From Pectinatus sottacetonis (GTDB taxonomy: Bacteria; Bacillota; Negativicutes; Selenomonadales; Selenomonadaceae), in the NCBI RefSeq assembly GCF_015732155.1, contig NZ_WIQK01000001.1:1188001-1252000 (forward strand): a DNA stretch of 64,000 nt, written 5' to 3'. Of this stretch, positions 21,016 through 61,316 are shown one piece after another (within the stretch, counting starts at the first letter, position 1; the number at the start of each line of letters is the position of its first letter). Position numbers and translations under genes: made by a program. The notes beneath the pieces were generated by a model. It did no database searches, had not been told where the DNA came from, and was given only the letters and a program-made list of their open reading frames with translations.

Positions 21016-22938
21016 TTATTTATACTTTTTTATGATTTCTGCTATTTTATCAGCGGCAAAAGATAAATCTTCATTATTATGTGTTGCCATAATGGCCGCT
21101 CTGAGCCTCGCTTCACCTTTTTTTACAGTCGGATAGCGAATAGCGGATATGTATATACCAACGGCAAACAACTTTTCTGCTATTTCCATCGTACATTTTT
21201 CCCCACCTGTTTTTATGGGCACTATGGCCGATGAAGTATTAACCGGAATTCCGTTTTGCGCCAAACAATGGCTGAAATAAGCTGTATTCTTCTGAAGCTG
21301 CTGTACAATAGAAGGATTTTTTTCAATCAGCTCTAATGCTTTTAGCGCTGCTGCTATTACTGCCGGGGAAAGACTTGTAGAAAAAATAAAACTACGGGAC
21401 TTATTGCGCAGATAATCTATAAGGATCTGACTGCCGCAGACAAATCCACCTTCACTAGCAAGGGCTTTACTCATTGTTCCCATAAGTATATCCGGTTTAT
21501 CACTGCTATTATAGTATTCAACAATTCCTCTGCCCGTCTTCCCTATAACACCTGTAGAATGAGCTTCATCCAACATGGATAAAAAATGGTATTTTTTTGC
21601 CAGATAAATTATTCCGGGCATATTGGCAATATCTCCATCCATACTGAAAACCGCATCACTTACTATTAGAGCACGGCAGGGAGAATACAAGCATATTTTT
21701 CTCTCAAGGTCTTTCATATCATTATGCCGATAAACAATAGTTCTGGCTTTACTCAGACGGCATCCATCAATAATACTGGCATGATTTAATTCATCGCTAA
21801 AAATAATTGTATTTTTATCACATAAGGCAGATATTATCCCTACGTTAGCCATATATCCTGTATTATACGTAAGTGCAGCTTCTGTATTTTTAAATTCAGC
21901 CAGTTCATTTTCCCACTGAACATGAAGTGTCATATTCCCTGTTGTTAAACGTGAGCCCCCTGAACCTGTACCAAAGTCATGTATAGCTTTAACAGCCGTT
22001 GCTTTAATCTGTGGATTATTAATTAACCCCAGATAATTATTAGAAGCAAGCATAATCATATCTTTATTTTCACATTTTATATGATTATTTTGCGCAGATG
22101 ATATTTCATACATTGTACGATAGAGATGTTGTTTCTGTAAAGTGTCTATATCTATAGAAATTTTCTGAATAAAATTATTTTGCCTAATATTTTCTTTATT
22201 ATCAGACTTTAGTTGCGGAATATTACCAACAAGTACATATTGTTTTTCTAAATAGTTAATACAGTCGGGAATATTTTCTTTCTTCCCGCGAAATAAAAAT
22301 ATCCTCCCGCCATCAGGACAACCCATCTCTTTAAGCTTTGTAATTCTTACATAACCTATATCTTTGGCTGCTACATATCCAGTCACATAATCAGGATCAT
22401 CAGACATACATATCTCTGCCACAATATATGGTGAATTCACCACTTTGCTGGCAAGGACAATTGCTTCCTTATAGTGATCTTTATCGGCTGGACAGCCGGA
22501 ATCTTCAGCATCCATATAAGTTGCCCGTATGCCGCGCTGAGGATCTGGCTCTAGTCTTTCCAATGTATCAGCATCAAGCAGCATTGCTCCCCGCATAGCA
22601 TATGTATCCTTAAATTTTTTCATTATTTCCAAACCATTTTTTATATGCAGTTTCTCCAATAATGCTAATATTTGCCGTTGGCCCATATCAGCATCTTTTA
22701 CTTCTATAGAAGTTACCGGCAATGCTTTAATATGCTCTATTTTCCGGGGATTTACCGATTCCACTTTCAGATTAATAAAATCAGGTTTTCCTTTAGCATG
22801 ATGCAGTGCCCGTTGTAACAAAGAAGATGCATCTTTATTAATTTTCTCCTCAGCAATAATTTTTTCTGCACCAGAAATATGCATGTTTCCATTATTGATT
22901 TTTTTACTAGCTCTCATCTTTAAACTATATAAAGCCAT
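21016..22938 (-). CDS. bioWF: Bifunctional BioW-BioF fusion: pimeloyl-CoA synthetase / 8-amino-7-oxononanoate synthase
   Basis: This 640-aa protein joins two biotin enzymes. Residues 1 to about 245 are BioW (6-carboxyhexanoate-CoA ligase): YSLKMRAS, HISGAEKII, HHAKGKPDF, RGAMLLDADT and AEICMSDDPDYVTGYVAAK. Residues about 260-640 are the PLP enzyme BioF (KAPA synthase), with ASNNYLGL, GTGSGGSRLTTGN, MLDEAHSTGVIG and MGTMSKALASEGG, whose lysine binds PLP. The fusion would make pimeloyl-CoA and use it directly. AGGAG lies 9 nt before the ATG. Transcription is from a promoter overlapped by a BirA-like operator at 23005-23058. Separate bioC and bioH-like genes at 13772-15262 make the pathway look redundant. 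Confidence 0.93.
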   Translation of the reverse strand: MALYSLKMRASKKINNGNMHISGAEKIIAEEKINKDASSLLQRALHHAKGKPDFINLKVESVNPRKIEHIKALPVTSIEVKDADMGQRQILALLEKLHIKNGLEIMKKFKDTYAMRGAMLLDADTLERLEPDPQRGIRATYMDAEDSGCPADKDHYKEAIVLASKVVNSPYIVAEICMSDDPDYVTGYVAAKDIGYVRITKLKEMGCPDGGRIFLFRGKKENIPDCINYLEKQYVLVGNIPQLKSDNKENIRQNNFIQKISIDIDTLQKQHLYRTMYEISSAQNNHIKCENKDMIMLASNNYLGLINNPQIKATAVKAIHDFGTGSGGSRLTTGNMTLHVQWENELAEFKNTEAALTYNTGYMANVGIISALCDKNTIIFSDELNHASIIDGCRLSKARTIVYRHNDMKDLERKICLYSPCRALIVSDAVFSMDGDIANMPGIIYLAKKYHFLSMLDEAHSTGVIGKTGRGIVEYYNSSDKPDILMGTMSKALASEGGFVCGSQILIDYLRNKSRSFIFSTSLSPAVIAAALKALELIEKNPSIVQQLQKNTAYFSHCLAQNGIPVNTSSAIVPIKTGGEKCTMEIAEKLFAVGIYISAIRYPTVKKGEARLRAAIMATHNNEDLSFAADKIAEIIKKYK

Positions 22939-46659: not shown

Positions 46660-47034
46660 TTAAAAATCTGTTTTCCATAATCCATGTAAATTGCAATATT
46701 CATATACTGTGCCACTTTCAGCACCGCAGAATTCAGCCTTAGGTTCTTGTCCAGGTTCTAGAAACTGAAGACGTACACGGGCATCTGCCACAAGCGCAAT
46801 CCACTGAATATAATGTTCCGGCTGCATTGGATGTAATGTAGAACCAACTGCAACTTTAATCTTACCATCAGTCTTAGTTACTACAGGAACGTGTTTTTCC
46901 TGTGCAGCATCTGTTGTGTTAGCAACAAGCTTAGTCATTGGCTGACCACAACAAGTAAGGGTGCCACCGCCATTATTTATAAGAGCTACAATATTACCAC
47001 ATTTTTCGCAACGATAAAAAACAACTTTGTCCAT
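46660..47034 (-). CDS. dfx: Desulfoferrodoxin / superoxide reductase
   Basis: This 124-aa protein reduces superoxide to peroxide without making oxygen, as in many anaerobes. The N-terminal desulforedoxin-like domain has YRCEKCGNIV and TLTCCGQPM (four Cys around one iron). The C-terminal domain has the active iron ligands: EKHVPVV, HPMQPEHYIQW and the YCNLHGLW Cys-His pair. The ATG at 47034 follows GGAGG by 9 nt; TTG 47040 is too close. It is the last gene behind encapsulated ferritin and encapsulin, 79 nt after the shell gene, with a strong terminator after it. Confidence 0.94.
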   Translation of the reverse strand: MDKVVFYRCEKCGNIVALINNGGGTLTCCGQPMTKLVANTTDAAQEKHVPVVTKTDGKIKVAVGSTLHPMQPEHYIQWIALVADARVRLQFLEPGQEPKAEFCGAESGTVYEYCNLHGLWKTDF

Positions 47035-47113
47035 TCTCAATTACCTCCAAAATATTAATTATATAATTTATATAAAGAACTGTTATTTTACAGTAAATAT
47101 CTATACAGTTCTT

Positions 47114-47929
47114 TTATTCAAAACGTACAATAGCCTGCGGCCGTTTAATCCTCAACAATAATGTCTCTAACAAGCGAAATTTATGATTAAGTTCGGTCTG
47201 TTCTAAATATGCAGTTTTAAGATCCTGTCCAATAACCAAATCCATATTGCGGCTGTCCGCACATACAAGGACCGCTTTTTCTTTTCCTAATGCAGGCGTA
47301 ATATATATATTTTTATTTAAAAGTTTTTTTACTCTGTCAATTTCCAGCAGTCCTGTTCCCTGCTGTAGCCTTTGCATTTGCAAGAATAAATCCGGACTCA
47401 GGGCCAATGAATAAGCACCATATATTCTTTTTTCTACCAACAAATTTATCGCTGCCGCAATATTTACAAAAGCATTTTCTCCAGTAGACCAGTCTGACCG
47501 TTCAATTTTATTGGCGCCATCTACACTGAATAAACCATCTATATTGAAGGTATTATCACCAAAGAAAATTAGTCTGTCTTCTTTCAAGGCGCAATTTTCT
47601 GCTGCATTAATAGCTTCTGATAAATCAATGGGATAGCCGAAATGAACAGCACTCTGTATATCCTTAGCTGATAAGGTAAAATCAGAATATAGTGTTGGAA
47701 TTTCAGAAAACTTTCGTCCTAAAGTCATTATCAATCCATTTTTAGCCACTTCATGCAGTTCATCAGCATTATCAATAGTAATATTAGTAACGCCAATTCC
47801 TAACGGCCCTAAAACCGAAATAAATCGTCGGCCATGCAAAACCATTTTTGCTGTATTTACAACAGTATCATCTATTTGCTTCCATAATTCCTCACTAAAT
47901 GGAGCTGACTCTCTGGATAAATAATCCAT
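47114..47929 (-). CDS. Encapsulin shell protein (family 1)
   Basis: This 271-aa protein forms icosahedral protein compartments from an HK97-like fold. MDYLSRESAPFSEELWKQID is the classic encapsulin N-terminus, which binds cargo tails; GRRFISVLGPLG follows, and SLALSPDLFLQMQRLQQGTG is in the A-domain. The C-terminus ends QAIVRFE. The ATG at 47929 has AGGAGG 9 nt upstream; the ATG at 47935 is too close. It follows the cargo gene by 35 nt. The cargo is the ferritin-like protein at 47965-48327, so the particle should store iron. Confidence 0.95.
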   Translation of the reverse strand: MDYLSRESAPFSEELWKQIDDTVVNTAKMVLHGRRFISVLGPLGIGVTNITIDNADELHEVAKNGLIMTLGRKFSEIPTLYSDFTLSAKDIQSAVHFGYPIDLSEAINAAENCALKEDRLIFFGDNTFNIDGLFSVDGANKIERSDWSTGENAFVNIAAAINLLVEKRIYGAYSLALSPDLFLQMQRLQQGTGLLEIDRVKKLLNKNIYITPALGKEKAVLVCADSRNMDLVIGQDLKTAYLEQTELNHKFRLLETLLLRIKRPQAIVRFE

Positions 47930-47964
47930 CAACATTACCCTCCTCGTATTATCTTCATAAAAAT

Positions 47965-48327
47965 TTATTTCATAAGGCTGCCAATAGTAGCTGAAGATAT
48001 AATATTTGTATTTTTAGCCTTAGTTTCATTTTCCAATTCCTGCAAAAGCTCTTTTACTTCATTTTCGCCAGAAATAAAATGTTCTGCCTCCTGAGGATCA
48101 AGAATACGAAGTAATGTCATAAGTTCGCCAACATGCGCTTTTTCTTCATCCCGTATATCAGCTATAACTTTCTTCGCAATTTCATTATCAGTTGCCTGTA
48201 CATGTGCATCATAAAGATATATTGCTTCCAGCTCCCCAGAAATATCCAAACGAACCGCTTGAATCAATTCTTCCTTAGTTAATTTTCGCTCAACATTTCC
48301 CTGAAACGGATTTGCAAAATCAGCCAT
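47965..48327 (-). CDS. Encapsulated ferritin-like protein (EncFtn)
   Basis: This 120-aa protein is a two-helix ferritin-like cargo that oxidises Fe(II) inside the encapsulin. Metal ligands lie in ISGELEAIYLYDAHVQATD and IADIRDEEKAHVGELM (the ExxH motif). The C-terminal tail SSATIGSLMK is an encapsulation signal of the (T/S)-(I/V)-G-S-L type that binds the shell interior. AGGAGG lies 7 nt before the ATG. It is the first gene of the operon. A promoter with a PerR-like sequence lies at 48367-48404. Confidence 0.94.
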   Translation of the reverse strand: MADFANPFQGNVERKLTKEELIQAVRLDISGELEAIYLYDAHVQATDNEIAKKVIADIRDEEKAHVGELMTLLRILDPQEAEHFISGENEVKELLQELENETKAKNTNIISSATIGSLMK

Positions 48328-48404: not shown

Positions 48405-48576
48405 TTAAAAATACAAATTATGCTCCCTAAATTTATTATATTATCAGTGCATACAAATATTTTTATTTTTTCATAAAATAATAAAAATATTTTATCATAA
48501 AATAAATATTGTCAAATGTCAAAAGTAAGTATATACTAAATTATATAGAAATTTAGTTATCTAAAATATTATATAG

Positions 48577-48729
48577 GAATAGGTGCCGCAAGGCTTAATA
48601 GGGAAGACCGGTGAAATACCGGCGCGGTCCCGCCGCTGTAACAGGGAGTAATGCTGTATTATGTCACTGGGATTTATCCTGGGAAGGCACAGTTTAGCTA
48701 TGATCTGAAGCCAGAAGAACTGCCTATTT
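48577..48729 (+). ncRNA. Cobalamin riboswitch aptamer
   Basis: The conserved class-I features are in order: AATAGGTGCC at the P1/P2 entry, GGGAAGACCGGTGAAATACC, GGCGCGGTCCCGCCGCTGTA, and the B12 box AAGCCAGAAGAACTGCC (48709-48724). P1 closes AATAGGT with GCCTATT. An intrinsic terminator follows at 48833-48871. It would bind adenosylcobalamin or a related form. No recognisable gene stands behind it on the plus strand for over 9 kb. Confidence 0.95.
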
Positions 48730-48832
48730 GACAATCACCGATGACAATATAATTTGTCGAACCTGCGAGCGATAGGAAGGGGATTTCTCGAATACATCCT
48801 TTTATTTTTGTTATATGGATTTAGTCGATGGA

Positions 48833-48871
48833 GCCTTTTGCCTTTTTTTGGCAGAAGGTTTTTATTTTTTA
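48833..48871 (+). terminator. Riboswitch-linked intrinsic terminator
   Basis: GCCTTTTGCC (48833-48842) pairs with GGCAGAAGGT (48850-48859) with two G-U pairs, followed by a long T-rich tract. It is about 100 nt past the aptamer and is the probable expression platform. Confidence 0.8.
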
Positions 48872-48928
48872 CAGACTCTGTAAAATTTTATAATTTATTA
48901 TTCCATTGATGAGTCTGTGATTTACAAG

Positions 48929-49071
48929 TGGACTAATAGAAATAAATTTAATTATTTTGTAATATCCATTTTATCACCCCAGTTAAATAAACAGTCATAC
49001 TTCTACATATGCTTTATTTATCTCCTGATAATGAAAATTACTAGTTTAATATTTTTTATTCTATTAGTCCA
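48929..49071. repeat. 143-bp element with 13-bp inverted ends
   Basis: TGGACTAATAGAA (48929-48941) and its exact complement (49059-49071) flank an AT-rich core; pairing continues a few bases inward with one bulge. It resembles a miniature inverted-repeat element or the shell of a long hairpin. No clear target duplication was seen. Confidence 0.45.
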
Positions 49072-49102
49072 TTATAATTCGCATGAAATAAATTCTAAAA
49101 AT

Positions 49103-49155
49103 GCAAAAATATCATCGTAAAGGTTTTTTATTGCAATGATATCTTTGCCTTTTTT
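49103..49155 (+). terminator. Intrinsic terminator
   Basis: GCAAAAATATCAT (49103-49115) pairs with 49136-49148 with one mismatch, and a T7 tract follows. It ends any transcript that reads past the riboswitch terminator. Confidence 0.65.
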
Positions 49156-49159
49156 TATT

Positions 49160-49655
49160 TATAAAAATCAATAACAGCCTCGAAAGGAGATGGTTCCATT
49201 GTATTAATTGTTTAAACATGGCAGTTTTTCAGTTTATCCACCTATATATTCTGCTTTTTATTTTTCCAGAAGATATAATCCACTTTATCCCATAATATAT
49301 TATTGCCGCCTCACAATAATATCATGCTATAAATATTTGGCTATTAACCGGAACTCGGAATTCCCCAGAGAATATTTATATCACTATCATTATAACAAGG
49401 TATAAAGTTATTATTATTACTAAGAAACTTATTTTGTTGTTATCCATTAATAAACAACTCTAACAGTTAAAAGCCATCCGCTTGATTAATAATATTGTGT
49501 CTGCCATGCTAATAGCCAATTAAACTGAAATGATCTTTATTGTATTTATTAATACTATAAAAGCCTATGTTATTAATAAATACTAAAAGAAAAATAATTT
49601 ATTTAAGAGAACCTCCTTCTCATATAAATAACTCCATCTTTAAATATAGTTCGGA
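49160..49655. other. Gap behind the riboswitch; no intact gene
   Basis: AAAGGAG followed by ATG (49191) opens a frame that stops after five codons. Longer frames behind it (49208-49405 and one starting MAVFQFIHLYILLF) are low-complexity and unlike any protein I know. A B12-regulated gene may have decayed here; the sequence does not allow its identification. Confidence 0.4.
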
Positions 49656-49696
49656 AATAATTACCTTAGGTCCGCCATAAACCTAAGGTAATTATT
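49656..49696. repeat. 16-bp perfect inverted repeat
   Basis: AATAATTACCTTAGGT (49656-49671) and its exact complement (49681-49696) surround CCGCCATAA. Neither strand has a good T-tract, and no gene ends nearby, so its role is open. Confidence 0.6.
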
Positions 49697-49843
49697 ATTT
49701 TAAAAACCAATAATCATAATTTTGGCATCGTAAACATTTTGTAAATATTTTTTGTTTTTTATGAATATTCAAAGAATATAAGTATGCCAAAACACTTAAT
49801 TTATTTTTTAATTCATATTTATTATACCTCTTTTTCCGATAAA

Positions 49844-49886
49844 CAACAGCCCTATATCATAATTTTTTTATGATATAGGGCTGTTG
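49844..49886 (-). terminator. 18-bp perfect hairpin after the 69-aa gene
   Basis: Arms 49844-49861 and 49869-49886 (CAACAGCCCTATATCATA) are perfectly complementary around a 7-nt loop. It lies 13 nt past the stop of the 49900-50109 frame, which supports that frame being a real minus-strand gene. Confidence 0.75.
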
Positions 49887-49899
49887 CTGCAATAAAAAT

Positions 49900-50109
49900 C
49901 TATTTTAACTGCATAGCATCATCTAAATTTTTTATTGCGAGCTGAAGCTGATTTTCTAAAAGCTTTAAACGATTTGCAATTTTTATTTCATTTCTCTGCC
50001 TGTATATAATTTGATCAGTTTTCACATGCAAAAGTATATCTTCCAGCTCATTTTTTTGTTTTTCTACATTAGAAAATACTTTTAAAATACAAAAGACTCC
50101 TTTTACCAT
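49900..50109 (-). CDS. Small coiled-coil protein of unknown function
   Basis: This 69-aa frame encodes a charged protein whose residues 15-66 look like a coiled coil (VEKQKNELEDILLHVKTDQI, then RLKLLENQLQLAIKNLDDAM). There is no signal peptide or known motif. The ATG at 50109 has only a weak binding site, but a strong terminator follows the stop, and the reverse frames are poor. I consider it a probable gene of unknown role. Confidence 0.5.
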   Translation of the reverse strand: MVKGVFCILKVFSNVEKQKNELEDILLHVKTDQIIYRQRNEIKIANRLKLLENQLQLAIKNLDDAMQLK

Positions 50110-50540: not shown

Positions 50541-51182
50541 TTAAAATTTAAAAGATAATCCTGCATATAACCCTTTAGCTGTTACATCCATATTAGTATT
50601 CTGAACCTGAAAATCATTTACTTTAGTATATTGATAAAGTAAATCTAAATCCACATTTTCGGTAAAGGCATAACCTACACCAGCTTCATAATGCTGCATG
50701 TTGTCACCAAAACCGGCAGCTGCCCAGCCTGTCATATTTGGAGCGATTGGAGCTTCATACTGTGCACCGGCTTGGAAAAAACTGCGTGTGGCATCGCCCC
50801 AGTTATCATCTAAACCTAAACGTGCATGCATATTACCAGCATATAATGAAACATTTTTATTGAGTTTATATCTCAAGTTATATTCCTGTGTTCTAAAATT
50901 TTGATCTCCAAAATCCGATAACTTCAGTCGACTGTCATTATACTTGTACTGTACTGCCAGATTATTGCCAAGACCTACTGTCGCACCGCCAAAAACCCTG
51001 TTTTTTACATCAGAGTCAACTTTTTCTCCTGTGTTGCTGTTTTTTACAGACATCGCTGGTGCAACAGCTGTACCTGCATTAATTTCAACTTTTCCCTGAT
51101 CATAATTCTGCAATGGTGCTGCAAAAGCTGTCGTACTTAAAGAAAGACAGACTGCAACTCCTAGTAACGTTTTTTTTGTCAA
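50541..51182 (-). CDS. Small outer-membrane beta-barrel protein (porin-like)
   Basis: This protein of about 213 aa has a signal peptide (KKTLLGVAVCLSLSTTAFAA) and a predicted barrel of roughly ten strands. Barrel traits include alternating residues (LAVQYKYNDSRLKL, YNLRYKLNKNVSLYAGN, YAGLSFKF) and a terminal Phe, the outer-membrane assembly signal. It has no SLH domain, unlike the porin at 3998. A TTG start at 51182 follows GGGGG by 8 nt; the frame extending to 51290 has no binding site. The family is recognised in many Negativicutes, but the transported solute is unknown. Confidence 0.82.
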   Translation of the reverse strand: MTKKTLLGVAVCLSLSTTAFAAPLQNYDQGKVEINAGTAVAPAMSVKNSNTGEKVDSDVKNRVFGGATVGLGNNLAVQYKYNDSRLKLSDFGDQNFRTQEYNLRYKLNKNVSLYAGNMHARLGLDDNWGDATRSFFQAGAQYEAPIAPNMTGWAAAGFGDNMQHYEAGVGYAFTENVDLDLLYQYTKVNDFQVQNTNMDVTAKGLYAGLSFKF

Positions 51183-51299
51183 CAAAAAGGCCCCCAAATT
51201 ATAATATACTTTTAACATCTTTTTGATATACTCACCATGGCTAAAATCAGGAAAATAGAGAGTGATACCGAATCCTGCCTTACAAAACAAGTTTTATGT

Positions 51300-55690: not shown

Positions 55691-56145
55691 TTATTGATAC
55701 TCCCTTATAATAAGTATTAGTCTTTAATATTGTATTTTATTGTTTATAGCTGATCCTATAAAATCATAAGCATATTTACCGATATATAATACATCTACTT
55801 GGGATAAGCTTGACTTTAAGATTTTATAACAGCATAACTGCCTTTTACAGAAATCATCTATAAACAATTTACTGCAATTTTACAATATACATAATTGACC
55901 AGCTTATGTTTTTCATTATAATCCTAATTATCACACATTCCCACTATTTAACAACCGCGGAAAAGAATCACCATACTTGTTTCTAATACATATAATTTTA
56001 TAAATTTTTGCTATACCTTCAACCATTACTTAAAGTTAAAGAAGTTATAATCTTCTTTGATTAAAATTCAATAACTTTGCCGCTTACTGCTAATAATGAT
56101 TAAGCACGCCATATTATACCACATAATTCATTTTGATATCAAAAT
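55691..56145. other. AT-rich gap, no gene seen
   Basis: The interval between DUF4446 and parB has no convincing gene. A weak AAAGAAG/CTTCTTT hairpin near 56035-56060 may end the parB transcript. Confidence 0.45.
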
Positions 56146-57057
56146 TTATACAAAAAATTCTTTTTCCATTTTTTGTGTTTTATTGGTAGTTTTTTCCTTT
56201 ATTAAAGTTTCCACTATACGATCAAGTTCTTGTTCTGAAGTAAATTCAATTTCTATTTTACTTTTTTTCAAACCTTTTTTTATTTTTACTTTTGTCCCCA
56301 GCAAAAGTTTTAATTTATCTTCTGCATCATTAATAAAGACATCTTTAGTTTTTTCCGTTTCTTTTTTTCCCATAGTAAAATACTGCGGATTTTGTAATAC
56401 TTTTTTTACTAAATTTTCTGCATCTCGGGCCGATAACTCATTAGCAATTATATATAATGCCGTTTGCTCTTGCAATTGTATATCATCGATTGAAAGCAGC
56501 GGTTTAGCCTGTCCCATGTTTAATACATCATCTACAACATATTTTTTTACCGTTTCACTCAATTTTAACAGCCGCAAAAAATTAGCAATATGGCTACGGC
56601 TTTTCCCCACATATTGCGCTACATCACTTTGCGTTAATCCTATTTCTGTTATTAACTTTTGGTAAGCAGCTGCCTCTTCGATTGCATTTAAATCTTCTCT
56701 CTGTAGATTTTCTATAAGTGCTATCTGTGCTGTTTCTTTATCATTATAGTCACACACTATAGCTGGTATAGCCTGCATATTTATTCTTTTACAAGCCCGC
56801 AAGCGACGCTCACCAGCTATCAACTGATACTTGCCATCTACCATTCTAACTAATACAGGCTGTAATATACCATATTTTTTTATTGATTGCGCTAGCTCAT
56901 CTATGTTTGTATCATCAAAATTATGCCGCGGCTGAAAAGGATTAGATAAAATATCTACTGTATTTATCTGCTCTATTTTCCCCTTATCAGATTCTGCATC
57001 CTTTAATAATGCGCCTAGCCCACGACCTAATGCATTATGTGTGGTTTTTTTAGTCAT
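56146..57057 (-). CDS. parB: Chromosome-partitioning protein ParB (Spo0J-like)
   Basis: This 303-aa DNA-binding protein nucleates at parS and spreads as a CTP-dependent clamp. The N-terminus NALGRGLGALL binds ParA. The ParB/Srx CTPase motif includes PRHNFDDTNIDELAQSIKKY and AGERRLRACK, and the helix-turn-helix reads IGLTQSDVAQYVGKSRSHIA. It overlaps parA by 8 nt, downstream of it in one operon. Two parS-like sites are at 57494-57509 and 58906-58921. Confidence 0.95.
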   Translation of the reverse strand: MTKKTTHNALGRGLGALLKDAESDKGKIEQINTVDILSNPFQPRHNFDDTNIDELAQSIKKYGILQPVLVRMVDGKYQLIAGERRLRACKRINMQAIPAIVCDYNDKETAQIALIENLQREDLNAIEEAAAYQKLITEIGLTQSDVAQYVGKSRSHIANFLRLLKLSETVKKYVVDDVLNMGQAKPLLSIDDIQLQEQTALYIIANELSARDAENLVKKVLQNPQYFTMGKKETEKTKDVFINDAEDKLKLLLGTKVKIKKGLKKSKIEIEFTSEQELDRIVETLIKEKTTNKTQKMEKEFFV

Positions 57058-57808: not shown

Positions 57809-58202
57809 AAAAACACCTTCTTTTTATTATTTATTATTGATTTTTCCACAAAATTACTTATTTTCCTGCACTATATCATAAATAAATGTCTAGATAAAAC
57901 TAATAGCTATTACCATTAACATATATTTTATGATAAAATATATGTTAATTTTATATAAATAATTTTCATTATACTGGTTAATATAAATTACAAAATCTAT
58001 TCCATTGTGTTTATTTTCTATTCTAAAAAGATCCAATAAAATACCCTATTCTTTACTTTGCATTCTAAGAAATTGAAAAACATTCATATAAATAACATCT
58101 TATCTTATATATTGAAAACTTCAAAGCAAAGACAAAATTTTTCTATATATTTTATCCGTATGCGTGATATTTTGTCAGCAGCTCAATCTTATAAATTTTT
58201 AC
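57809..58202. other. Gap between parA and the methionine synthase operon
   Basis: This AT-rich interval contains the divergent promoters of parA and the metH operon. I saw no SAM, cobalamin or other known riboswitch in it. Confidence 0.45.
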
Positions 58203-58214
58203 GAGGTGTCAAAT

Positions 58215-58895
58215 ATGCCTATATACAATGCTCCATTAAAAAAAGTTGATCAAAAGGAAACACGACGCTATGCCGGACTGGCAATAGCTGATTTTGATGA
58301 AAATTTCATCATAGATGCCTGTGATGAAATTGTATATTCCGCGACACCACGTGGTATATGGAATATGTATAATTATGATAATATTCATGGTATTGTTTTA
58401 GCTGATAAGGACTTCCAAATAACAGGCAGTAAAATATTAAATCATCTCAGTCATTGCCAAAAAGTAATCATCATGGCCGTTACTATTGGTGAAGTCATAG
58501 AAAAATCAATAGAAATGGCTTTTAATAATGGTACTTATTCACATGGTTTGTTACTTGATGCCGCAGCTACTACTGCAGTAGAACAAATTGCCGATGCCCT
58601 TGAAAAAAATATAGACCCTAAAGCAAATGCACTAGGATACAAACGTATTTGGCGTTTTAGTCCCGGATATGGCGATTGGAGTATAACATGTCAACCCCAA
58701 ATACTCAAGTTAGCCAATGCTGAAAAAATAGGCATACACTGTACTTCATCTATGATGCTCACGCCAAGAAAATCCGTAACAGCCATAATTGGCCTTGTTC
58801 CTCAGACAGACCCTTTTTCTCCTGAAAAGCCCTCTTGCCAAAATTGTTCACAAAAAAACTGTCCCTCACGAAAAGTTACAAATAAAAATTTTTAA
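58215..58895 (+). CDS. Methionine synthase activation-domain protein
   Basis: This 226-aa protein corresponds to the C-terminal reactivation domain of MetH. It contains RFSPGYGDWSITCQPQIL, the SAM-binding RxSPGYG-type motif, and LTPRKSVTAIIGLVPQ. A Cys-rich tail (CQNCSQKNC) may bind a metal or iron-sulfur centre. It would reductively methylate cob(II)alamin with SAM. The ATG at 58215 follows GAGGTG. metH lies 42 nt downstream and lacks this domain, so the pair make up a split enzyme. Confidence 0.9.
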   Translation: MPIYNAPLKKVDQKETRRYAGLAIADFDENFIIDACDEIVYSATPRGIWNMYNYDNIHGIVLADKDFQITGSKILNHLSHCQKVIIMAVTIGEVIEKSIEMAFNNGTYSHGLLLDAAATTAVEQIADALEKNIDPKANALGYKRIWRFSPGYGDWSITCQPQILKLANAEKIGIHCTSSMMLTPRKSVTAIIGLVPQTDPFSPEKPSCQNCSQKNCPSRKVTNKNF

Positions 58896-58905
58896 ATTCA
58901 ATGCA

Positions 58906-58921
58906 TGTTTCACGTGCAACA
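58906..58921. promoter_or_regulatory. parS-like site between the activation gene and metH
   Basis: TGTTTCACGTGCAACA matches parS (TGTTTCACGTGAAACA) at 15 of 16 positions. It lies in the 42-nt gap before metH, about 1.4 kb from the parS-like site in parA. Confidence 0.85.
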
Positions 58922-58937
58922 AAAAGAAGGTATTATT

Positions 58938-61316
58938 ATGATACATATATTCGATGGTGCCATGGGCACAATATTACAAGAACGAGGCATCTTAAAATCA
59001 GGCATATGTCCCGAATTATTAAATATCAAACATCCAGCAGATATAATCAATGTGCATAAAGCTTATATAAACGCAGGCTCTACAATTATAGAAACAAATA
59101 CTTTTGGAGCCAGCCGTATAAAATTAGCCCATTTCGGACTTGAGGGCAGTACACGGGAAATAAACATGGCTGGTGTAAAAAATGCCAGAGTTGCTGCCTG
59201 CAATAATGCTAAAGTAGCTGGATCAATGGGCCCTACTGGCAAATTTATTGAACCTTTAGGTGACCTTACTTTCGATGAGGCTTATGATATATATTTAGAA
59301 CAAGCTTCTGCTCTTGCCGAAGCTGGTGCTGACTATATTTTAATTGAAACTTGCATTGATCTACAGGAAATGCGTACTGCATTACTAGCTGCAAAAAAAG
59401 CTGCTCCAAATATTCCTGTTATCTGCCAAATGTCTTATTCCGAAGATGGCAGAACAGTAACCGGGACAGATGCCCAAACTGCTGCTATTACTCTTGAAGC
59501 AATGGGCGCTGACATAATTGGGGCTAATTGTTCCACAGGTCCAGAACAACTGCTGCCAATAGTTAAAATTCTTGCTAAAAATTGTGCCTGTCCCATCAGT
59601 ATCCAACCAAATGCAGGTATGCCGCACTTAATAAATGGCAAAACAATATTCCCTATGAGTCCTATTGCTATGGCCAAATGGGCTCCCAAACTGATAAGTG
59701 CCGGAGCATCCTTTATCGGCGGCTGCTGCGGCACTACTCCCAATCATATTGCAGAAATAAAAAAAGCTTTATATAATTCACCCGATCCTATACGGATAAA
59801 ACCTACTAGTTCTTTAGCACTCACCAGCCGCACTAAAACTGTATTTATCGGCATTGATATGCCAACCAGGCTAATCGGTGAAAGAATAAATCCTACCGGC
59901 AGAAAAAAATTAGCGGCAGAAATAAAAAACGGTTCTTTTATATCAGTAAAAAAAGAAGCGGTAGAACAAACAAATGCTGGTGCAGATATTCTTGATGTAA
60001 ACATGGGTGTTGGCGGCATTGATCAACCTGCTGCTATGGAAAAAGCAATAAAAGAAATCTCACAAATAGTTTCTACACCCTTATCTATAGACACAAGTGA
60101 TCCCCAAAGTTTAGAAGCAGGATTAAAAGCCTACCCAGGACGAGCTTTGATCAATTCTGTTTCTGCCGAACCTGACAGATTAAAATATTTTATCCCCTTA
60201 GCAAAAAAATATGGAGCAGCTATTCTCTGCCTTCCCTTATCAGATAAGGGATTGCCAAAAACTGCTGGTGACAGAATAACCATCCTAAAAAAAATCATTA
60301 CCCATGCTAAAGAAGCTGGTTTGAAAGATAATGATTTTATTTTAGATAGCCTTGTAATGACAATAGCTGCAGATAAGACAGCAGGATGCGAAGTCTTAGA
60401 GGCACTTAATCTATATCGCCATGAATTCGGTTATCCCTCAACTATGGGACTTTCCAATATTTCCTTTGGTCTTCCCAATAGACCCCTTGTAAATAGTACT
60501 TTTTTTGCCATGTGCTTGGCCGCTGGACTTGATGCCCCTATAATGAATCCTTACGATACATCTATGCAAAATACATTATCTGCCGCTGCAGCTCTAATTG
60601 CTAAAGATCCTAATGGCCAGAAATACAGTTTAACAGCATCTAAACAGCAATCAACTATTGTCAAAGAAAAAAATATTCCTAAAAATATTTTAACGGCAAT
60701 AAAAAATGCCATAATAAACGGTGAAAAAGAAAATGTTGCCAATATGGTCGAACAAGCATTAAAAGAAGGCCATTCTTCCAATGAGCTAACAGAAAAAGCC
60801 CTTTCTGCAGCTATGAATGATGTGGGAAAAGATTTTGGAGCAAAAAAAATTTTTCTGCCTCAAGTCATGCTTTCTGCTGAAGCCATGCGTGAAGCATTTT
60901 TAAAAATAAAAGAAATCATTCCCGCCCAGGAAATTGCCAATAATGGAACTGTTGTTATTGCTACAGTAAAAGGCGATATCCATGATTTAGGTAAAAATAT
61001 TGTTGCAGCTTTATTAGAAAATAATGGCTTTAAATTAATTGATCTAGGTAAAGATGTGGCTAACGAAGCTATTGTTCGTGCTGCTATTGAAAATGATGCC
61101 GATATAGTAGGCCTCTGTTCCTTAATGACCACTACCATGACTCAGATAGATTCTGTAATTTCTTCCTTAAAAAAAGCTGGTTCTAAGGCTCATGTTATTG
61201 TAGGTGGTGCTGTTTTAACGCAGGAATATGCTGATAATGCTGGTGCTGATGCATATGCGGAAGACGGTGTAATAGCTGTTAAATTAGCCAAAAATTTAGT
61301 ACAAAATAAGCTATGA
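58938..61316 (+). CDS. metH: B12-dependent methionine synthase, truncated-type MetH
   Basis: This 792-aa enzyme transfers the methyl group of 5-methyl-THF to homocysteine. Domain order: homocysteine-binding barrel (about 1-285; zinc Cys in GANCSTGPEQ and GGCCGTTPNH), pterin-binding domain (about 300-560; RINPTGRKK, DVNMGVGG, SIDTSDPQS), cobalamin cap (about 580-660) and Rossmann B12 domain with DIHDLGKNIVAALLENNGF, whose His ligates cobalt. The activation domain is absent and is encoded by the preceding gene. GAAGG precedes ATG 58938; the frame to 58905 runs across parS. A terminator overlaps the stop at 61306-61338. Confidence 0.93.
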   Translation: MIHIFDGAMGTILQERGILKSGICPELLNIKHPADIINVHKAYINAGSTIIETNTFGASRIKLAHFGLEGSTREINMAGVKNARVAACNNAKVAGSMGPTGKFIEPLGDLTFDEAYDIYLEQASALAEAGADYILIETCIDLQEMRTALLAAKKAAPNIPVICQMSYSEDGRTVTGTDAQTAAITLEAMGADIIGANCSTGPEQLLPIVKILAKNCACPISIQPNAGMPHLINGKTIFPMSPIAMAKWAPKLISAGASFIGGCCGTTPNHIAEIKKALYNSPDPIRIKPTSSLALTSRTKTVFIGIDMPTRLIGERINPTGRKKLAAEIKNGSFISVKKEAVEQTNAGADILDVNMGVGGIDQPAAMEKAIKEISQIVSTPLSIDTSDPQSLEAGLKAYPGRALINSVSAEPDRLKYFIPLAKKYGAAILCLPLSDKGLPKTAGDRITILKKIITHAKEAGLKDNDFILDSLVMTIAADKTAGCEVLEALNLYRHEFGYPSTMGLSNISFGLPNRPLVNSTFFAMCLAAGLDAPIMNPYDTSMQNTLSAAAALIAKDPNGQKYSLTASKQQSTIVKEKNIPKNILTAIKNAIINGEKENVANMVEQALKEGHSSNELTEKALSAAMNDVGKDFGAKKIFLPQVMLSAEAMREAFLKIKEIIPAQEIANNGTVVIATVKGDIHDLGKNIVAALLENNGFKLIDLGKDVANEAIVRAAIENDADIVGLCSLMTTTMTQIDSVISSLKKAGSKAHVIVGGAVLTQEYADNAGADAYAEDGVIAVKLAKNLVQNKL

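Follow-up and report, generated by a model that had tools for sequence, protein, structure and literature searches.

A cobalamin riboswitch with no recognisable gene behind it in Pectinatus, and a conserved gene-less counterpart in the same genome

Introduction

What does a cobalamin (B12) riboswitch control when no gene follows it? The question is raised by a locus in a Pectinatus genome of 2.69 Mb (the source genome, G000). The window, that is, the whole stretch of 64,000 nt that was analysed, corresponds to G000:C1:1188001-1252000, and positions without a prefix refer to it. An earlier note on this DNA described an aptamer and a terminator with no gene behind them and offered two explanations, the remnant of a lost B12 gene or a B12-controlled regulatory RNA. 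To our knowledge, few organisms have yielded a characterised riboswitch that controls an RNA instead of a gene. EutX of Enterococcus faecalis and Rli55 of Listeria monocytogenes are B12-controlled RNAs that sequester an ANTAR regulator (passages of PMC5821096 and PMC8079631), and AspocR is described in passages of PMC8079631 as a B12-controlled antisense RNA.

The genus set consisted of five Pectinatus genomes, the source and its congeners G001, G002, G003 and G004. Class-level searches covered 300 genomes for the DNA downstream of the riboswitch and 380 genomes for the riboswitch itself (48560-48872).

Anatomy of the locus

The riboswitch is flanked on the left by genes for encapsulin (47114-47935) and a ferritin-like protein (47965-48327), the latter with an EncFtn-like match just over the cut-off. 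They belong to a minus-strand row of desulfoferrodoxin, encapsulin and ferritin-like genes (46660-48327) that runs divergently from the riboswitch and is likely an oxidative-stress and iron-storage cluster. On the right lie orf69 (69 aa, 49900-50109, minus strand) and then an outer-membrane beta-barrel gene. Farther off in the window, a minus-strand ORF of 640 aa (21016-22938) is a fused biotin gene, with a BioW (6-carboxyhexanoate-CoA ligase) domain in front of an aminotransferase class I/II domain that looks BioF-like by eye. The features of the locus are collected in Table 1.

Table 1. Features in and around the riboswitch (window positions)
Feature	Position	Strand	Basis
Candidate sigma-70 promoter, TTGTCA-17-TATACT	48509-48537	+	10 of 12 matches; ends 26 bp before aptamer
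Cobalamin riboswitch aptamer, complete	48564-48741	+	RF00174, 107.4 bits, model 1-189
Post-aptamer element, ACCTGCGAGCGATAGGAAGGGGATTT	48761-48786	+	By eye; many DNA matches extend across it (query end 246-248)
T1, riboswitch terminator, U-tail to about 48871	48830-48862	+	Terminator pattern (13 pairs, 5 G-C) and folding (-18.0 kcal/mol)
Structured non-coding segment between T1 and T2	48872-49095	+	Folding z-scores
Long imperfect hairpin	48929-49071	+	42-nt arms 48929-48970 and 49030-49071, 74% complementary
T2, second terminator-like hairpin, followed by T-run 49150-49156	49103-49148	+	Folding (-14.1 kcal/mol for 49096-49160) and inspection
AT-rich stretch in which no gene, family match or relative was recognised	49157-49843		ORF, Pfam, DNA and tblastn searches
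Perfect inverted repeat of 19 bp, shortly beyond the orf69 stop	49844-49886		Repeat search; fold -30.7 kcal/mol

The RF00174 match spans all 189 model positions (E 6.4e-26, gathering score 31.5). It confirms the complete aptamer of the earlier note and begins 13 bases before the start at 48577 given there. It is the only Rfam match at the gathering threshold within the window; over 48540-50000, at E up to 10, the 18 other matches all stay under their own gathering scores. By score the aptamer ranks 5th of the 13 cobalamin riboswitches in the source genome and 18th of the 51 in the genus. Its alignment has 22 non-standard-pair positions, the joint highest with L008 among the nine source-genome sites whose alignments were inspected (range 12-22, counted by eye). 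Promoter-like sites do not exceed chance here (21 sigma-70-like sites against 19.7 in shuffles), so the candidate upstream of the aptamer is argued for by position alone.

The terminator claimed behind the aptamer was recovered as T1 (GGAGCCTTTTGCC..GGCAGAAGGTTTT), one of the terminator-like sites in a pattern scan that found 2 against 0.7 in shuffles. T1 thus supplies the predicted expression platform expected of a cobalamin riboswitch. Between aptamer and T1, the post-aptamer element is a candidate antiterminator strand. Similar elements follow the aptamer in most riboswitches of the genus, as judged by eye, and when the 3' arm of T1 is left out of the fold, the 5' arm pairs with the second half of the element. 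The best upstream duplex of this arm scores -12.0, a strength equalled by 146 of 200 shuffles and thus at chance level.

A second hairpin, T2, was overlooked in the earlier note; its stem stands directly before CTTTTTTT, and it is likely a second terminator. The terminator pattern accepts loops of 3-8 only and the T2 loop is too long for it, so that T2 was not listed by the scan and is argued from folding and inspection. The main element of the segment between T1 and T2 is the long hairpin, nearly perfect in its outer part and diverged in its inner arms. Against 300 shuffles, the folding z-score is -4.97 for 48863-49095 (without T2) and -6.26 for 48863-49165 (with T2). Similar values on the reverse strand (-5.35 and -6.75) mean that the signal reflects inverted repeats and is no proof of an RNA. 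In a fold survey across the window with 30 shuffles each, the segment scored -5.26, a value as low as this being found in 2 of 137 background windows; another low background window overlaps the segment itself. As modelled, a read-through RNA should end near 49160 with its last ~290 nt strongly folded.

The DNA behind the terminators

No plus-strand ORF of gene quality occurs before 58164-58895, in agreement with the earlier statement that no intact gene follows in the next 1.3 kb. Before that point, only one plus-strand ORF reaches 110 aa (56096-56665), and most of it overlaps parB on the minus strand. The gene that begins at 58164 is a methionine synthase split over two ORFs (58164-61316, plus strand), an ORF of 243 aa and then MetH of 803 aa. 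This MetH has no activation-domain match, and the 243-aa ORF matches the activation domain just under the cut-off. The short ORF that had been noticed after a Shine-Dalgarno sequence does have five codons (MVPLY-stop); its ATG is at 49190, not 49191, and the Shine-Dalgarno-like AAGGAG abuts it directly.

Candidates for the remnant of a lost gene were sought by protein family, by translated similarity and by DNA, and all came out at chance level. With Pfam, the six frames of 48740-49899 produced a single hit (E 0.086), far short of its cut-off. With tblastn, 341 stop-to-stop frames of at least 200 residues from the collected loci gave a best score of 24.3 bits; its single-query E of 0.003 is what chance would give over 341 queries. 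At DNA level, where at most two candidates were scored per genome, 48872-49900 had matches at E 0.001 or below in 15 of the 300 class genomes, the source included; the other 14 have single or double AT-rich matches of 27-53 bases (E 2e-5 to 1e-3). By Pfam, tblastn and the 300 class genomes, no remnant of a gene was thus detected behind the aptamer. The inverted repeat next to orf69 has, as its only other match listed in the source genome, itself inverted.

The same place in congeners

The order ferritin - orf69 - cfa is kept in G002, G003 and G004 (the cfa gene is one that we take, by eye, to encode cyclopropane-fatty-acid synthase). The ferritin-orf69 spacer measures 339, 204 and 286 bp in these genomes, respectively, against 1572 bp in the source. 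The inserted DNA is defined here by this excess of 1.2-1.4 kb, and its boundaries are unplaceable since the spacers have diverged too far. With all five genus genomes searched for RF00174, none of the three syntenic spacers contains the riboswitch. G001 has ferritin and encapsulin genes without the other neighbours, and no riboswitch near them within the 11.5 kb examined. The absence of riboswitch and extra DNA from all three syntenic congeners indicates a lineage-specific arrangement and argues against a shared gene lost at this place.

The beta-barrel gene (50541-51290) lies between orf69 and cfa and is missing there in the three syntenic congeners, whose orf69-cfa gaps, at about 190-250 bp, are too short to hold it. 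The gene adds a further lineage-specific difference to that of the riboswitch.

Relatives of the riboswitch

The riboswitch is common: 48560-48872 was matched at E 1e-25 or below in 108 of the 380 class genomes. A tree of 85 aptamer rows, of which 82 are distinct, places the window aptamer with three riboswitches from G052, which belongs to another family; the support is 89/96 on a branch that is not starred. Two of the three directly precede TonB-dependent receptor genes. In DNA matches, the second G052 copy is 80% identical over query positions 36-246; the first, which is the one of the three not directly before a receptor gene, is the best match through T1, with 74% over 304 query bases. 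Behind this riboswitch come a second riboswitch-like RNA (by eye), an ORF of 61 aa, another riboswitch and then a TonB receptor. The whole tandem (L075:3779-5200) contains no ORF of 90 aa between the first riboswitch with its terminator and the receptor. Further tandem riboswitches occur at L166, L167, L168, L169, L171 and L184.

The 29 best-matching loci were classified by eye on their first or longest sense ORF. It was a GntP-like transporter in seven, a TonB receptor in five, CbiK-like in five, methylmalonyl-CoA mutase-like in three, another B12-related protein in three and something else in three. In the remaining three (L166, L167 and L174), the sense ORF is absent or has only 112 codons in the stretch examined. 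Three plasmid records also match, in the riboswitch part only.

The earlier note had proposed a search of relatives for the gene normally behind this riboswitch. Two of the three nearest relatives by tree have a TonB-dependent receptor gene directly behind them; at the same place in the three syntenic congeners, both the riboswitch and the extra DNA are missing. The TonB-receptor leaders, nearest in G052, resemble the window locus in aptamer and expression platform, and they differ from it in being followed by the receptor gene.

B12 riboswitches across the genus

The five Pectinatus genomes contain 51 RF00174 sites. At 39 of them, the next ORF is in sense, has at least 130 aa and lies within 500 nt (including L107, with an intact ORF 51 nt on); at five more, a sense ORF of at least 130 aa follows at 665-789 nt. 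The seven sites without one are the window site (1500 nt examined), one shared locus in each of the five genomes, and L139 of G003, a degenerate site (45.4 bits) where a sense ORF of 81 aa lies 476 nt on. Separation of a riboswitch from its gene has a precedent in G002:C3, where L111 and L112 carry identical aptamers ~3.2 kb apart. L111 has an ORF of 450 aa 84 nt on; behind L112, a different ORF comes only after 491 nt in which no ORF reaches 70 aa. The riboswitch was thus duplicated and separated from its gene.

Two further observations came from these loci. In four of the five genomes (L011, L107, L117 and L133), a riboswitch stands ~50 nt before a gene that looks malate/lactate-dehydrogenase-like by eye; the four aptamers form one clade (97/92), and the link of the gene to B12 is not obvious. 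At L079:7380-7830 of the source genome, CRISPR-like direct repeats (GTTTTCGTCCCCTTACGGGGCTTATGTTTTTTAA) were spotted by eye.

A conserved sister locus

A second gene-less B12 riboswitch of the source genome lies outside the window at L057:3688-4099 (G000:C1:1093687-1094098), with counterparts at L108, L115, L125 and L138. It is flanked by a thioredoxin gene and a convergent gene for a TPP-dependent, acetolactate-synthase-like protein. In all five genomes the riboswitch is followed by T1, a conserved RNA of ~110 nt and T2. Judged by N-termini, the convergent gene is the same in four of them (G000, G002, G004 and G003, in the last behind an opposite ORF of 213 aa); G001 has an opposite ORF of 578 aa.

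The mean column identity of the RNA is 91%, and 97.0% of 99 cells are paired in its first hairpin and T2 stem. Four pairs differ at both positions, where shuffles lead one to expect 1.3; 7 of 500 shuffles reach four. Such compensatory changes among only five related sequences are modest evidence. In G001, an insertion of 1 nt inside the conserved block throws out of frame an ORF that would otherwise cross it, and it is thus an RNA, not a peptide, that seems to be conserved. A covariance model built on this RNA, R1, found it in all five genus genomes and, under stricter filters, gave one weak match among the other 295 genomes. This match (30.8 bits, L155 in G046) lies among four tRNA genes, overlaps at least one of them and was taken as false. 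Within the source genome R1 matched the sister locus only, and the window RNA had no match to it. With its conservation, its compensatory changes and a terminator of its own, the sister RNA is a strong candidate for a B12-controlled sRNA without an ANTAR motif, apparently kept under selection in the genus.

One stretch of the sister RNA is complementary to a Shine-Dalgarno-like sequence. Up to three mismatches, this pattern has 34 sites in the five genomes, fewer than the 88 of a reversed control; the four exact ones are the sister locus. Twenty-six of the other 30 were inspected. The site at G000:C1:303673 lies at the start of an ORF of 103 aa that looks, by eye, like a methylmalonyl-CoA decarboxylase delta subunit. 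The protein occurs in two of the five genomes, and the duplex of the second genome falls in another register. From sequence, this ORF may be a target of the sister RNA, and it is a weak lead.

Comparison with known systems

Like EutX and Rli55, the window locus has a B12 riboswitch and terminator followed by non-coding RNA and no gene. The two known RNAs carry an ANTAR dual hairpin, whereas none was found in the window RNA, and the window locus is not conserved. The ANTAR motif is a dual hairpin whose hexaloops have A1 and G4 (passages of PMC3369931); a scan for it, with stems of at least 3 pairs and a gap of up to 60, was negative for the window RNA and the sister RNA alike, and an ANTAR sponge was rejected for both. 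The source genome does encode an ANTAR response regulator, its single ANTAR match, together with a HisKA_2/GAF_PdtaS kinase in an EutVW-like pair (L045:11845-13854). No eut-like genes were seen by eye beside it within the 18 kb examined.

AspocR and the antisense-acting riboswitches treated in parts of PMC9943018 share with the window locus an orientation towards the 3' end of a convergent gene and the lack of a sense gene. The window locus differs from them in that T2 lies ~750 bp before the convergent gene, that orf69 has no recognised family and that the arrangement is not conserved. Passages of the same article count 10,769 cobalamin riboswitches in sense and 190 in antisense, and treat pseudogene-adjacent ones as fortuitous; Pectinatus does not appear in its main text. 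A further likeness is in the source genome itself, where the sister locus has the same succession of riboswitch, T1, non-coding segment, T2 and convergent gene. The sister locus, however, is conserved in five of five genomes with compensatory changes, and the window RNA is unmatched by R1. We found no report of either locus in the open-access papers searched. The kind of thing is already known, and the window locus is one more member.

Possible roles of the gene-less riboswitch

With moderate confidence, we read the window unit from its sequence as a marooned and probably working B12 riboswitch, with no selected function demonstrated for its RNA. Aptamer and T1 are both complete, and a complete switch with an unconserved output is best fitted by a marooned leader. 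Transcription would start near 48544. With cobalamin bound, T1 would form and a leader of ~320 nt would be released. With little cobalamin, polymerase would read through the structured segment to T2, giving a non-coding RNA of ~600 nt. The unit most likely originated as the leader of a gene for a corrinoid (TonB-dependent) receptor; it may have entered the ferritin-orf69 spacer of this lineage without the gene, or the gene may have been deleted later.

Several points weigh against this reading. If a gene was lost, no trace of it is left, yet the aptamer scores like gene-bearing ones. The segment behind T1 is predicted to fold far beyond shuffles and to have its own terminator, which a pure relic would not need. 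Furthermore, the genus keeps another gene-less B12 riboswitch under apparent selection. A working switch, in turn, is put in question by an antiterminator that is not above chance and by non-standard pairs at the high end.

Some of these points favour a selected, trans-acting sRNA that would be made when B12 is scarce and would pair with mRNAs or bind a protein, in the manner of EutX/Rli55 and AspocR. This is a serious rival, and a possible one in our judgement: the switch has a good score, its output is predicted to fold and terminate, and one RNA of this sort has already been retained by the genus. The layout with two terminators and the strong folding speak for it, and so does the gene-less riboswitch with conserved structured RNA and terminator in the source and all four congeners. 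Against it, the matches to the RNA region of the window in 300 class genomes are all short and AT-rich, R1 recognises only its own sister site in the source genome, the ANTAR dual hairpin is absent by scan, and the opposite strand folds about equally well. Either option of the earlier note may be right. Indirect support for a controlled RNA comes from T2, the strong folding and the conserved gene-less riboswitch elsewhere; the searches for a gene remnant were negative.

It is improbable that the riboswitch serves an unrecognised short gene or one broken by a sequencing error. ORFs of 67 aa (48917-49120) and 65 aa (49208-49405) could be proposed as such a gene, and the former is the longest on the plus strand in 48863-49899. 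A length of 67 aa is, however, reached by 8.3% of 1000 dinucleotide shuffles, and the Pfam and tblastn results given above offer nothing better.

Silencing in cis at low B12, by read-through RNA entering the convergent orf69 or regions beyond, seems more improbable still. The convergent layout is that of the antisense-acting riboswitches described in parts of PMC9943018. The T2 stem ends at 49148 and the orf69 stop is at 49900, with the inverted repeat 49844-49886 also in between, so that an RNA ending at T2 does not overlap the gene. Moreover, Pfam gives no match for orf69 at E 0.001, and three congeners retain this ORF without the riboswitch.

Least probable of all is a mobile-element remnant, in which the inverted repeat 48929-49071 would be a MITE-like insertion and the rest debris: the nearly perfect outer and diverged inner arms and the absence of the region from congeners would suit it, but pattern searches of five genomes, plasmids, phages and viral contigs for a MITE or insertion sequence gave no support, with no second arm copy within 2 mismatches in the source genome, 3-mismatch sites no commoner than in a reversed-pattern control, plasmid matches over the riboswitch part only (3 records), no phage-record matches and the exact 20-nt arm in no viral contig.

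Significance for regulation by B12 in Pectinatus

The sister locus, although outside the window, is the part most worth following. With a stranded switch and a conserved riboswitch-sRNA candidate in one genome, it becomes possible to test whether new regulatory RNAs arise from marooned riboswitches. Even as a relic, the window unit would warn against presuming a target gene for every riboswitch. A more far-reaching proposal, which we regard as doubtful at present, is that Pectinatus uses at least two B12-riboswitch sRNAs without ANTAR motifs, an old one found genus-wide and a young, lineage-specific one in the window. If true, it would show a stranded riboswitch turned into an sRNA of B12 scarcity.
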